From: Cytobacillus firmus
GTDB lineage: Bacteria > Bacillota > Bacilli > Bacillales > Cytobacillaceae
NCBI RefSeq assembly: GCF_023657595.1
Contig: NZ_CP098323.1
Coordinates: forward strand, 3,372,001-3,436,000
DNA length: 64,000 bases
Direction of reading: 5' to 3'
Below the pieces are notes generated by a model. The model made no database searches, was not told the DNA's origin, and worked only from the letters and a program-made list of their open reading frames with translations. The translations under genes were made by a program, and so were the position numbers. The first letter of the stretch is position 1. Each line of letters begins with the position of its first letter. Positions 54,388-61,101 of this stretch are shown here, piece after piece.

Positions 54388-55281
54388 GTGCTGCAAAGTA
54401 TTTTAAAATCAACAGGTGTATTTATGTTAATTGTCATTGGATTTATCCTGATTCTTTTTCTTCCAAGAGAAAAGGAAGTAACCTTTTTATCGGCCTTTCA
54501 AATTGAAGCAGATTACCCCTTCAGTTTTGAACTATATCTGGAAAGAATAGAAGATTTCACAGACCATATTTTAACTGAAAAAGGATTAGGGGAAGCCCGC
54601 ACCGGACGCCCCGTTAGTGAAGAAGCTGGAATATTCGTGGCGCGCAGCTTAAAAATTGTTCTGCCTGCTTTCATTTTCAGCATGCTTCTTGGCACATTAA
54701 TGGGTGCTGTCCAATTTCACCGGAGAACAAAGTTCACCGGGAAACTGCAGAATTTTCTTTCCTGGATGTTTTCTTCCATACCCGATTTTTTTCTGTTTAT
54801 TGCCATACAGTATCTTTTCATTCTGATGATGCAGCATGGACTTCCGCACTTTAAGCTATATGGACATGAAAATTGGTATAGCTTTTTATTGCCGCTCATT
54901 TCATTATCCTTGTTTCCATTTTTGCACATGTCCCGTTTTACATCGGCTGCTCTTGAAAATGAAATGGGCGAAGAGTATGTGCGCACAGCATATGCAAAAG
55001 GGCTTGGCGACTTCAAAGCACTTCTTCACATGCTATGGAATTGCTGGTCCCCCATGATGAACCAGGCGCAGATGGTGATGCTCTATATCCTATCCAGTCT
55101 CCCAATCATTGAAAAGCTGGCAGGCTACAATGGGGCAGGCAAGGAACTTCTATTCAGCATATCATCTAATGATGAAATTAAGGCACTGTCCCTGATGCTT
55201 CCCTTTCTCTTCATCATGTTTTTAACTATTATCCTTTCACAGACAGCAAAATTATGGCTCGTCCAAAAGGAAAGGGTGTGA
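54388..55281 (+). CDS. ABC transporter permease, dipeptide/oligopeptide (DppB) type, orphan
   Basis: A 297-residue permease with six transmembrane segments. The first is near the N-terminus, followed by a long external loop, and the cytoplasmic EAA-like loop is YVRTAYAKGLGDFKALLHML. It resembles DppB/OppB subunits, but neither an ATPase nor a substrate-binding protein is encoded nearby. The start is GTG 3-5 bases after GAGGTGAAG. Its stop overlaps the start of the next permease by one base. Confidence 0.85.
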   Translation: MLQSILKSTGVFMLIVIGFILILFLPREKEVTFLSAFQIEADYPFSFELYLERIEDFTDHILTEKGLGEARTGRPVSEEAGIFVARSLKIVLPAFIFSMLLGTLMGAVQFHRRTKFTGKLQNFLSWMFSSIPDFFLFIAIQYLFILMMQHGLPHFKLYGHENWYSFLLPLISLSLFPFLHMSRFTSAALENEMGEEYVRTAYAKGLGDFKALLHMLWNCWSPMMNQAQMVMLYILSSLPIIEKLAGYNGAGKELLFSISSNDEIKALSLMLPFLFIMFLTIILSQTAKLWLVQKERV

Positions 55282-56204
55282 TGGAGATGCGACTTTTATC
55301 ATGGATCAACAAACATGCTTTATTTTGCTTAGGAACCTTTTTGCTGCTGCTATTGCTGGCAATCACGTTTGCCGGACCATATCTTCCTTTTGTTGACCGC
55401 GAGCTTACAACGATTACATACATCCTAAATGAGGATAAGAAGCCAGTTATACCGCCTTATCCGCCATCAGAGGATTACATATTTGGCACTGACAAAAGCG
55501 GAAGGGATTTACTCAGTCTTATCATCCTGGGGGCAAAAGAAACCATTTTGCTAGTTGCCTGTATAACTGTCCTTCGCTATGTACTGGCCATTCCGCTCTC
55601 CTTTCTTGCACACAAAAAATGGCTGGGTACACACCTCTTGCTTAAATGGCTGAATGGACTGCTGTCATATATTCCAACCATCATCATTGTCATGCTTCTT
55701 GCCATGCTGCCGCCATTTTTGCTGAGTGAATGCCGCCCTTTATTCCTGCTCCTTATTATTGCTCTGGCAGAAATGCCCCGTGCTGCTGAAATGATAAAGC
55801 TGGAATTTGATCAGATTTCATCTAAAGAGTATATAAATGGAGGGATTGCTGCCGGATCTTCACCTTACAGGCTTTTCAGAATATACTATCTTCCTCTTCT
55901 GTATAGTAAGCTTCTTGTATATATGGTTACTGATCTTGGAAAAGTCATGTTTCTGCTTGGTCAATTAGGGTTTATCGGCATTTTTATTTCACAGGATTTT
56001 GTTCAATCCATGACAGGAGATTGGCAATTGGTCAATAATTCGATTTCTTGGCCAATGATGATGATTAAAGCCTTTGAGGATATAAGAGGCCCAATTTGGA
56101 TTCCTTTTTTCTCGGCATTTTCCATGACCTATGCCATCTTAACTTTTAATATTTTCGCCGAGGGATTAAAATCATTTTTCACCAGGAAGGTCCGATATAT
56201 TTAG
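55281..56204 (+). CDS. ABC transporter permease, DppC type, orphan
   Basis: A 307-residue permease partner of the preceding gene. The N-terminal helix is followed by the external segment EDYIFGTDKSGRDLLSLIILGAK, typical of DppC/OppC. The EAA loop is divergent (KEYINGGIAAGSSPYRLFRI). ATG overlaps the preceding stop (TGATG). Together the two would form a membrane channel needing an ATPase in trans. About 100 bases later comes a Crp-family regulator in the same orientation. Confidence 0.85.
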   Translation: MEMRLLSWINKHALFCLGTFLLLLLLAITFAGPYLPFVDRELTTITYILNEDKKPVIPPYPPSEDYIFGTDKSGRDLLSLIILGAKETILLVACITVLRYVLAIPLSFLAHKKWLGTHLLLKWLNGLLSYIPTIIIVMLLAMLPPFLLSECRPLFLLLIIALAEMPRAAEMIKLEFDQISSKEYINGGIAAGSSPYRLFRIYYLPLLYSKLLVYMVTDLGKVMFLLGQLGFIGIFISQDFVQSMTGDWQLVNNSISWPMMMIKAFEDIRGPIWIPFFSAFSMTYAILTFNIFAEGLKSFFTRKVRYI

Positions 56205-57657: not shown

Positions 57658-60066
57658 TTAACTGTTCAGTTTAGATGTATCAATCCAATTATTGAAATAG
57701 CCGGTCGGAACACTGAAATAATCCTTTGTGAAGGATATAAACTCCTTCGTATCGACCTCTTTATAGCGGAATTTCTGATAATAATCTGACAGGAACTGCA
57801 TCCCCACTTCCTTAGGGGATTCTCCTTTCAAGGTATACTTTTCCTGAATCATTTGTAAAATCTCCAAAGCAGGCTGGCCATAAATATATCCTGTATGCTT
57901 TACCTCATTAACCGGCACATTTGAATATTGCCTGCCCAGACCAGCTTCCTCGATAGCCTCCATCCGATAATGGGAGATGCCAAATGCCTGTCGTTCAGCT
58001 TGGTTTTGTCCTGCATAGAAGTACATAGAGGTGGCAAATTCAGTAATCCCTTCATCAATCCACGCATTGTTGTATGGGTCATTAGCTACTGCTCCATAAA
58101 AATACTGATGAGCAATTTCATGAACAATAGAAATATCATAAAACCTTTTATCATCAATATAAGGATTTATAGTGACTATACCGGGATATTCCATAAATTG
58201 CCCTTCATCCAAAACAATATCAAGCTGCTCATGCGGGTAATCACCAATATTATTCTGATAGAAAGATAGTGCTTTTTTGGCCAGTGTTAACGATGCTTCC
58301 GGGTTTTTGTCATGATTCCCCTTTGAAAATAGTCTGACCTTCACACCGTCTTGCGCTTCCGTTTCATACACTTTCATATCCTTCATGACTGCAATGAAGA
58401 AATCCCTGACCTTTTTGGCTTTAACTGTCCCTTCACTCTTTCCTTTTTCCGGATCCATTTCTGCTGTGGAAGCCAGGGAATACCCTTCAGGCAGCTTATA
58501 GGAAACTTTGAAATCAGAGAAGCCTGTATGAAATGTTTCCAGCCCCTCCATATAAGGCTCTTTGTTCCATTTGCCTTTTTGATAGACTGCAGCCATTGGG
58601 TACCATTGAGCAAGATAATAATTTGTACCTGCTTTTGAAAAACGGATGCCTCTTTCTGGGACTGTAAATCCATATTGGATCTCCACCTTATGTCTGCTTT
58701 TATCCTTCATTTCAGGTTTTAAGTTTATTGTTAGCGTATCACCATCCAGCTTAAAAGAAGCTTTTTGCCCATTCACTGTCACTTTTTCGATCTCTGCTTC
58801 AGACGATCCTTCAACAGAATCAAATGAATGTCCCTCTTTAAAAACGTTCGGAATGAAATAAAAGACAAGCTCATTCCAGTCTTTATCTGATTGGTTTTTC
58901 ATCTGGATATTTGCTTTAGCAGTGAAATAGCCTTCACCGTTCAATTCCAGATCAATGTTATAATCCGCCTTGCTGCCGCTTTGAACACCTGTATTTGAAT
59001 CCTTTGCAGCCACAACATAGACACCTGCACCTGCAAAAGCAACGACTAATGCAGCGAAGCCTGCTTTAGGGCCGGAGAATGACCAGAATTTCTTTTTTCG
59101 GCCATATTGTTTTCTGGAAGGCTGTATTAATGGCTCATGCCCAGTCTTAATCCAGGGAGTACGCTGATAGTTTGATTGAAAGCGGTTCTTCAGTCCATTT
59201 GCCAGCAGACTGAAAGACACAGTTGCAAGCAAAAGGACCGCTAATGGTGCAATTAATATATGGGTATTGCCATAAATATTTAATCTTGCCTGGCCAACCA
59301 ATCCCGCCAGCTCCTTTGTTGCTGACAGGTAGATGATGGGGTCATATCTCATAATGGTTCCGCCAACAAAGATATTTAAAAGTGCCAGCTGGCCCATAAG
59401 GGCGATTACGTAGACAATTTCAAGTATAAACATTACTAGGAACGTTTCCTTTAACTGAGGAAAAATATGCTTCCAGATCAGACGGTGTTTTCCGGCCCCC
59501 AGGGCTTTTGCAGCTTCAATATAAACAGACTTATATAACTGAGCGGTTTTAAGCCTTACAGAAGACACAATGCTTGGAATGCTGATGACTGACGCAATGA
59601 CTATAAAATAGACAATTAACACATTTTGCTTAAGATTACTGTTGAAGCTTATTGGCGCAAGAAAAAAATACAGGATCAGAAAAAGCGGTACATAGCTCCA
59701 TGCATTTTCGAAAGCAATCAGCCAGCCTGGCGTCCTTTTTAAGGTGCCCGCATACAAACCGATGATTGTTCCAAATGCCATTTTTATAACAGTCACAGCA
59801 GCTGCAATAAAAACAGTGTACCTTAATCCATATAAAATCATGGATAAAATATCATAGCCCCATTTATCGGTGCCCAGCGGATAGGAAGAGGATTCAAAAG
59901 GTTCCAATGGCGGTGCCAGAACCTTCCCGTTAGTATATTGTGTTTCTAAAACCGATGTTAATGAATGCGGTGCAAGAATAGGCCCGAAAATGCTGAAAAA
60001 AAGCAAGCCGGAAACCATAACAGTTCCGATAATTAAGGAGTAATTTATTTTTAACAGCTTATTCAT
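57658..60066 (-). CDS. ABC permease (DppC type) fused to a membrane M1-family metallopeptidase
   Basis: An 802-residue fusion. Residues 1-300 are a DppC-like permease: six helices, the external YPLGTDKWGYDILSMILYGLR and an intact EAA loop (EAAKALGAGKHRLIWKHIFP). After a basic linker and one further transmembrane helix (about residues 330-350), an extracellular M1 (gluzincin) peptidase follows with the GxMEN-like GQFMEYPGIV, the zinc site HEIAHQYFYG and the third ligand in WIDEGITEF, plus a conserved Tyr region. ATG at 60066, 8 bases after GGGG, overlaps the preceding permease stop. A combined peptide-cleaving and transport role is inferred. Confidence 0.85.
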   Translation of the reverse strand: MNKLLKINYSLIIGTVMVSGLLFFSIFGPILAPHSLTSVLETQYTNGKVLAPPLEPFESSSYPLGTDKWGYDILSMILYGLRYTVFIAAAVTVIKMAFGTIIGLYAGTLKRTPGWLIAFENAWSYVPLFLILYFFLAPISFNSNLKQNVLIVYFIVIASVISIPSIVSSVRLKTAQLYKSVYIEAAKALGAGKHRLIWKHIFPQLKETFLVMFILEIVYVIALMGQLALLNIFVGGTIMRYDPIIYLSATKELAGLVGQARLNIYGNTHILIAPLAVLLLATVSFSLLANGLKNRFQSNYQRTPWIKTGHEPLIQPSRKQYGRKKKFWSFSGPKAGFAALVVAFAGAGVYVVAAKDSNTGVQSGSKADYNIDLELNGEGYFTAKANIQMKNQSDKDWNELVFYFIPNVFKEGHSFDSVEGSSEAEIEKVTVNGQKASFKLDGDTLTINLKPEMKDKSRHKVEIQYGFTVPERGIRFSKAGTNYYLAQWYPMAAVYQKGKWNKEPYMEGLETFHTGFSDFKVSYKLPEGYSLASTAEMDPEKGKSEGTVKAKKVRDFFIAVMKDMKVYETEAQDGVKVRLFSKGNHDKNPEASLTLAKKALSFYQNNIGDYPHEQLDIVLDEGQFMEYPGIVTINPYIDDKRFYDISIVHEIAHQYFYGAVANDPYNNAWIDEGITEFATSMYFYAGQNQAERQAFGISHYRMEAIEEAGLGRQYSNVPVNEVKHTGYIYGQPALEILQMIQEKYTLKGESPKEVGMQFLSDYYQKFRYKEVDTKEFISFTKDYFSVPTGYFNNWIDTSKLNS

Positions 60067-60922
60067 AGATAAAACCCCGTTTAAACAGATAGAATATGAG
60101 TCTATTAGAAATATAGACAATTAAAGAAATCAAAAGCATGGCAAACAAGCCGATTGCAATCGGCTGAACCCCGCTGCTCTGAAAAATAAATTTTGTTATG
60201 CCGGAAACATTCATAATATATTCAATAATAAAGAGATTGCCAATAGCCAGGGAAATCACTTTGACAAGTTCAGATTTGATAAATGGCTCTAAATTTTTGA
60301 AGACATGCTGAAAATTTATGTAATTTAAGCCCATTCCTTTAGCAACTGCAGTCTTAATATAATCCTCCCCGCTTGTCTGATAATATTTGACCGACACGAG
60401 CTTAAATAAATATAGCGTCGGGGCAATCGCTGCAAGCGCTGTGGGAAACCATGTGTTGAGAGCTCCTCCATCCGGTCTGAGTGAAATCACCCTGATACCG
60501 GTCATTTTATATATTTTAACGGCAAGAATCATAGACATCACAATGATGATAAAGTCAGGTATGGCCGCAAGAATATTCATGAAAGCCCCAAAAAGCTTAG
60601 TAAGCCTGAAGCGGCTGATAAACACTCCGAAAATTAGACTTATAATTAAGGATGCATTTACAGCAACCAATACGATCAGCAGGCTGGTAAAAAAGTTATC
60701 AGCAATGTCCCCGGCTATAGGACGTGTCTGCATCCCAAGCTCATAGGTACCAAGGCTTCCCTTGCTTATTTCAGAAATAAAATCTCCATAAATATGCGGC
60801 AGACTTTCGAAGCTCCATTGTAGACTCCCGCTCAATGGATCAACAGATATAATCTTTGGCAGAGCTGCAAGAAATAAAATTAATACAAATATAATAAAAA
60901 TTTGCTGCACAGCACGAACCAT
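60059..60922 (-). CDS. ABC transporter permease, DppB type, partner of the fusion protein
   Basis: A 287-residue permease with an N-terminal helix, an external loop with SLGTYELGMQTRPI and five further helices; the EAA-like loop is EDYIKTAVAKGMGLNYINFQHVFKN. The start is the ATG at 60922, 5 bases after AAAGGGGGG; a longer ORF to 60952 lacks a site. Its last codons overlap the fusion gene by 8 bases. No ATPase or binding protein lies nearby. The gap 60923-61101 holds AT-rich sequence and no recognisable element. Confidence 0.85.
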   Translation of the reverse strand: MVRAVQQIFIIFVLILFLAALPKIISVDPLSGSLQWSFESLPHIYGDFISEISKGSLGTYELGMQTRPIAGDIADNFFTSLLIVLVAVNASLIISLIFGVFISRFRLTKLFGAFMNILAAIPDFIIIVMSMILAVKIYKMTGIRVISLRPDGGALNTWFPTALAAIAPTLYLFKLVSVKYYQTSGEDYIKTAVAKGMGLNYINFQHVFKNLEPFIKSELVKVISLAIGNLFIIEYIMNVSGITKFIFQSSGVQPIAIGLFAMLLISLIVYISNRLIFYLFKRGFIYE

Positions 60923-61101
60923 AGTAACCCCCCTTTTATGACTAAGAGTCATTTTTCTATTTTTTCACTTTTGTCTAAATTTCGCCAATCATAACAATTA
61001 AATTCTCATAGATAATATTTCCTATATATATTTAAAAATAGACCGGCTATTCTATTTTTAAATATATTTAATCTTTTTTCAAGTCTGATTTTTTAAAACA
61101 T

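Follow-up and report, generated by a model that had tools for sequence, protein, structure and literature searches.

A DppC-type permease fused to an M1 peptidase in Cytobacillus firmus: a possible built-in peptide receptor for a transporter without a separate binding protein

Introduction

Why would a permease of the importer type carry a peptidase at the end of its chain? The question is raised by a gene within a 64,000-nucleotide stretch of Cytobacillus firmus DNA (contig NZ_CP098323.1, positions 3,372,001 to 3,436,000; hereafter the window), whose product joins a DppC-type permease of the ATP-binding cassette (ABC) transporters to an M1 metallopeptidase. Type I ABC importers are generally described as needing a binding protein, either separate or fused. 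Here we report that the fusion is real, and tentatively propose that its peptidase part (the M1 head) captures peptides for a transporter that has no separate binding protein.

Results

The gene and its partner comprise the following features, all located on the reverse strand:

57658..60066 (-), fusion gene of 802 amino acids: DppC-type permease, basic linker, further helix and M1 peptidase (open reading frame, Pfam, AlphaFold2 model)
59167..60066 (-), permease domain, residues 1-300 (Pfam BPD_transp_1; closest solved relative E. coli DppC, E 1e-11)
59446..59523 (-), EAA loop or coupling helix, residues 182-207, the ATPase contact site (alignment and the excerpt of PMC12136057)
58996..59073 (-), helix 332-357, a probable seventh membrane span that would take the chain outside (AlphaFold2 model)
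57673..58983 (-), two-domain M1 peptidase, residues 362-798
58108..58122 (-), HEIAH zinc-binding and catalytic motif, residues 649-653 (read in the sequence)
58051..58053 (-), distal zinc ligand Glu672
60059..60952 (-), DppB-type partner permease, overlapping the fusion gene by 8 bases and devoid of the binding-protein docking-loop motif (Pfam, alignment)

The frame of the fusion gene is uninterrupted from the likely ATG start at 60066 to the stop at 57658-57660; called mechanically, it would begin 18 codons earlier, at the TTG of 60120. Pfam matched the product to BPD_transp_1 (residues 99-296, E 1e-11, 45.3 bits, cut-off 26.4) and to Peptidase_M1 (residues 596-780, E 3e-7, 30.6 bits, cut-off 27.7), the latter being the sole M1 match of the whole genome; the B. 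subtilis genome used as a control yielded none. The EAA loop reads YIEAAKALGAGKHRLIWKHIFPQ (residues 182-204); across 48 aligned loci, L189, G190, A191, R195, W198, P203, Q204, K206 and E207 are invariant, and E184 is present in 40. The zinc site is complete, with H649-E650-x-x-H653 followed after 18 residues by E672 (HExxH-x18-E). The exopeptidase motif of M1 peptidases is GxMEN; its counterpart here is FMEYPG (GMEYPG in stand-alone relatives), in which Met-Glu is retained but Gly and Asn are not. The AlphaFold2 model has a mean predicted local distance difference test score (pLDDT) of 80.9, exceeding 90 in most ten-residue blocks of the M1 part, and helix 332-357, preceded by the basic linker, is probably a seventh span placing this part outside the cell; a counterpart of the helix also ends several permease-only relatives. 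Both Pfam and fold comparison assign the outside part to the M1 fold, not to a binding-protein fold, and no FtsX domain (PF02687) appeared among the Pfam matches of the protein up to E 0.1. The best NCBIfam equivalog, Opp4C, scored 75.7 bits against a cut-off of 350, which leaves the protein outside the named equivalogs. The original prediction, which described a DppC-type permease with an intact EAA loop and a complete M1 zinc site in one polypeptide, was therefore right about the anatomy.

Near-full-length matches to the fusion were detected in 43 of 151 independently assembled genomes of the family, including 26 of the 28 genomes within the genus (hand count), five of the match rows showing one stop within the aligned stretch. 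Among 48 named loci found by permease alignment, 39 are fused, eight encode the permease alone and one is a fragment. The proposal that a sequencing or assembly error had joined two genes, or that close relatives would prove to be consistently split by a stop, is refuted by this distribution; no point in its support was found, and its probability is negligible. The permease domain is better conserved than the M1 part. At 97-98% identity, the window itself falls near Cytobacillus firmus. Most of the loci (38 of 48) occupy one chromosomal place, between yprA/hsp20 and yppG; of the remainder, five from the Neobacillus mesonae group lie behind oppABCDF, four lie elsewhere and one is on a 7.5 kb contig. 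Genes 83-97% identical to the Cytobacillus gene occur in L059, L065 and L068, whose record titles (Paenibacillus, Sporosarcina globispora and Pseudomonas, respectively) are probably wrong or outdated.

The permease pair has BPD_transp_1 domains and an EAA loop as expected of an Opp/Dpp-type importer, whose ATPases and binding protein are encoded together with it; comparison with OppA, OppD and OppF, however, revealed no ATPase or binding-protein gene in the window. The 12 oligopeptide-type ATPases and eight SBP_bac_5 proteins of the genome are all located outside the window, and the six ATPase pairs each accompany permeases of their own. Since the EAA loop is kept while no ATPase adjoins the pair, an ATPase partner is expected and would have to be borrowed; sharing of this kind has been measured for FhuC of Staphylococcus aureus (excerpt of PMC10147376).

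According to the excerpt of PMC12136057, DppA is bound by the scoop (docking) loop of E. coli DppB, which also closes off the cavity. The corresponding region is a gap in the alignment of the DppB-type partner. Its marker PG[DN][PAV], chosen by us from the alignment, was present in none of 47 partner proteins and none of seven Mesobacillus-type partners, and in 10 of 11 canonical DppB/OppB proteins (five of five OppB at the same loci; five of six in the genome of the window, the sixth reading PGSP). With no adjoining ATPase or binding protein and with the DppB dock missing, the fusion and its partner are not an ordinary Dpp importer.

The DppC-M1 architecture was traced through its relatives. 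A single ancient fusion was rejected as the source of all DppC-M1 proteins, since trees forcing one clade were rejected for the permeases (p 3e-7) and for the M1 parts (p 0.001; borders hand-set), with caution due to long branches. A third form, from Lottiidibacillus patelloidae (L166, protein P0109; 1195 amino acids, complete zinc site), is encoded between yprA and yprB; its permease is separate from that of the window, while the M1 tree is compatible with its M1 part grouping with the clade of the window (p 0.29). The sequences thus support at least two origins of the fusion, perhaps three, the long branches again warranting care.

Several related architectures were recorded. One metagenome protein (P0110, 1162 amino acids) unites DppB-type permease, DppC-type permease and M1 part in one chain, with an M1 site, KEIAE, that looks dead. 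Another (P0123, 1199 amino acids) unites both permease types with an M28 peptidase domain, which gave short matches only to solved structures; a viral-contig scan with P0123 returned no match. In P0070 a DppC-type permease is joined to a beta-propeller of the pyrroloquinoline quinone (PQQ) type. DppB and DppC types share one chain within orphan pairs of several families (L161, L167, L169 and further frames of 660-712 amino acids). Stand-alone M1 relatives are common, several with a predicted N-terminal anchor, and two sets of them keep HE..H in 15 of 18 and 21 of 21 members. A general link of such stand-alone genes to orphan DppB/DppC pairs was considered and dropped, being seen at two of 13 loci (L050, L161) and then at none of 20.

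Fusions of a related M1 part with FtsX-like permeases were also found (L165, L172, P0111-P0118, P0120, P0121); L165 matched FtsX (E 5e-24) as well as M1, and both L165 and L172 have an ATPase gene immediately upstream. These proteins lend something to the possibility that the window pair does not transport, ATP hydrolysis by a borrowed ATPase instead switching the M1 head between states, in the way FtsEX controls cell-wall hydrolases. FtsX-type proteins are described as mechanotransmitters in the excerpt of PMC6355983, and loss of the binding-protein dock would suit a pair that no longer imports. DppC-type permeases nevertheless differ from FtsX in fold class, with no FtsX match in the window protein; dead heads under purifying selection (see below) leave no enzyme to control, and the position behind oppABCDF in five loci indicates peptides. 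We regard mechanical control as unlikely.

HE..H and the distal Glu are retained in 33 of 39 fused loci, but the site was lost at least three times within the clade of the window (tree built without the fragment L105, as for the head-loss count below) and is absent in 13 of 13 Mesobacillus copies examined. The dead Mesobacillus M1 fold is under purifying selection, with ratios of nonsynonymous to synonymous substitution rates (dN/dS) of 0.067-0.153, as low as those of live Cytobacillus heads (0.09-0.113, six pairs); these are pairwise Nei-Gojobori estimates with dS saturated in several pairs, hand-set domain borders for Mesobacillus, and seven of 17 Cytobacillus-clade pairs excluded from the ranges as yielding no M1 or no permease ratio. 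Because some relatives keep the head under selection after losing the zinc site, the head probably catches peptides and does not only cut them. In the AlphaFold2 model of a Mesobacillus fusion the M1 part alone was used, the whole being poor (mean pLDDT 55.8). An M32 carboxypeptidase gene stands divergently beside the DppB-type gene in five Mesobacillus loci (L053, L054, L055, L170, L171), and a flotillin-type gene lies near L053.

The protein could also be a plain cell-surface aminopeptidase anchored by an orphan permease, the released amino acids and short peptides being taken up by other transporters. The prevalence of full zinc sites agrees with this, as do the commonness of stand-alone relatives, most of them bearing HE..H and several a predicted anchor, the status of the fusion as the only M1 protein of its genome, and the split frames of permease and M1 in two of 13 Mesobacillus copies, which indicate that the covalent linkage is dispensable. 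Left unexplained, on the other hand, are the repeated independent fusions, the selection on dead heads and the greater conservation of the permease domain, and we consider a mere anchor rather unlikely, if slightly less so than mechanical control. These two remain the main rivals to peptide capture.

A link to oligopeptide transport was seen in the Neobacillus mesonae group, where the pair lies directly downstream of oppABCDF in five of the 48 loci (gaps of 124, 133, 134, 264 and once 1429 bases). One of these, L095, is fused and has a complete zinc site, and the other four encode the permease alone. As the five loci form one clade, the adjacency counts as one event, not five. The idea that the fused pair is linked to oligopeptide ATPases in general was abandoned, this group alone showing the arrangement.

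The window holds a further, unfused pair:

54388..56204 (+), second orphan DppB/DppC-type pair (B2 54388-55281, C2 55254-56204; Pfam)

It has no ATPase, binding protein or head, is divergent from yprA, and occurs in 11 of the 48 related loci. The genome has a further orphan DppB/DppC pair elsewhere (L038:1965-5276, about 682-685 kb). The upstream neighbour of that pair is a protein of 408 amino acids whose N terminus is signal-like and which matches a DPPIV-type propeller domain weakly, below the cut-off.

Several observations weigh against peptide capture by the head. The docking motif is also absent in all 10 orphan pairs read (the window's partner and the fused L166 included), so that loss of the loop is a trait of the whole orphan class not tied to the M1 head, and unfused orphan pairs persist with neither head nor dock. 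The four other relocated or unplaced loci have no oligopeptide ATPase beside the pair, and a fifth is on the short contig. Entropy over the zinc stretch ranks fourth lowest among 413 segments in the active clade, which argues that catalysis matters there. In Mesobacillus the Glu that binds the peptide N terminus is lost as well (MEY to MAY), so the ligand bound there may not be a peptide N terminus. The head is, moreover, dispensable, the permease standing alone in eight of 48 loci after at least three independent changes; tblastn found no M1 remnant behind the permease-only genes of these eight loci, in which L077 and L044 retain a short tail (L077 a truncated remnant of 398 residues). Finally, dead heads within the clade of the window look relaxed (dN/dS 0.27 and 0.20), consistent with decay.

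Head loss, the truncated remnant and this faster evolution would all fit a permease that is shedding an old, unneeded peptidase, dead heads being its remnants. Such decay is disfavoured for Mesobacillus, whose dead heads evolve as slowly as live ones and in which the dead-site region remains among the best conserved, and the window's own copy is intact; as a general account we find it improbable.

Discussion

We infer transport, coupling and the identity of the ATPase partner from sequence. In the peptide-capture model, the M1 head would take the position of OppA above the mouth of the permease, bind peptides by their N termini and pass them to the permease. Import would follow, probably powered by borrowed ATPases of an oligopeptide transporter, of which OppD/OppF are the likeliest. 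The Cytobacillus firmus lineage keeps all zinc ligands and the general base, and there the head would probably also clip N-terminal residues before uptake. The original prediction had coupled trimming outside the cell to passage through the permease. The peptidase-permease link itself is upheld by its conservation, by at least two independent fusions and by the single chain of P0110, whereas trimming-coupled import cannot be the whole story given the repeated loss of the zinc site from a fold that stays under purifying selection. Its other suggestion, release of processed peptides during export, finds no support in these data.

The OppABCDF and DppABCDF importers, including E. coli DppABCDF of solved structure, are the best named relatives through OppC/DppC, with a like DppB/DppC-type pair and EAA loops; the window pair differs in having no adjoining ATPase or binding protein and no DppB docking loop, in scoring far below the NCBIfam equivalog cut-offs, and in its M1 head. 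That head shares fold, HExxH-x18-E and the MEY motif with the two-domain M1dr of Deinococcus radiodurans and other M1 aminopeptidases, but is tethered to an importer-type permease, and several of its relatives have no zinc site. In the FtsX-like fusions, too, an ABC permease chain ends in an M1 part belonging to this wider family, yet the permease is of the FtsX type and has an ATPase gene of its own (L165, L172), which the DppB/DppC-type pair of the window lacks.

Exporters that bear a peptidase are already known, as are importers with a fused binding protein (excerpt of PMC11466899). From the same excerpt, ArtP of B. subtilis, a binding protein fused to its permease, resembles the window protein in having an outside domain on a type I permease and suggests a role by analogy, although the ArtP-like outside domain has a binding-protein fold and not that of an M1 peptidase. 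SunT and the peptidase-containing ABC transporters (PCAT) with a C39 domain, also treated there, again combine peptidase and ABC transporter in one chain; unlike the window fusion, they are type IV exporters with an N-terminal C39 domain and act on exported peptides. Among the open-access papers searched, we found none that reports an M1 head on a DppC-type permease, subscription papers lying outside the search.

It is conceivable, and we put it forward with more reserve than the reading of the window itself, that ABC importers which had shed their binding protein took on the M1 fold, on at least two independent occasions, as a built-in receptor for their substrates. A live peptidase in Cytobacillus, or a pseudopeptidase in Mesobacillus, would then replace OppA, and such peptide transporters would form a new ABC subtype. 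The same may have happened with other outside enzymes, as is hinted at by individual metagenome proteins in which the fused part is an M28 domain or a PQQ propeller. If true, a dock-less permease pair with a live or dead peptidase outside would show a route by which a binding protein can be replaced. The natural series of live head, dead head, no head, split head and one chain would make each step testable, and the many unannotated orphan DppB/DppC pairs of Bacillales would gain a testable function.
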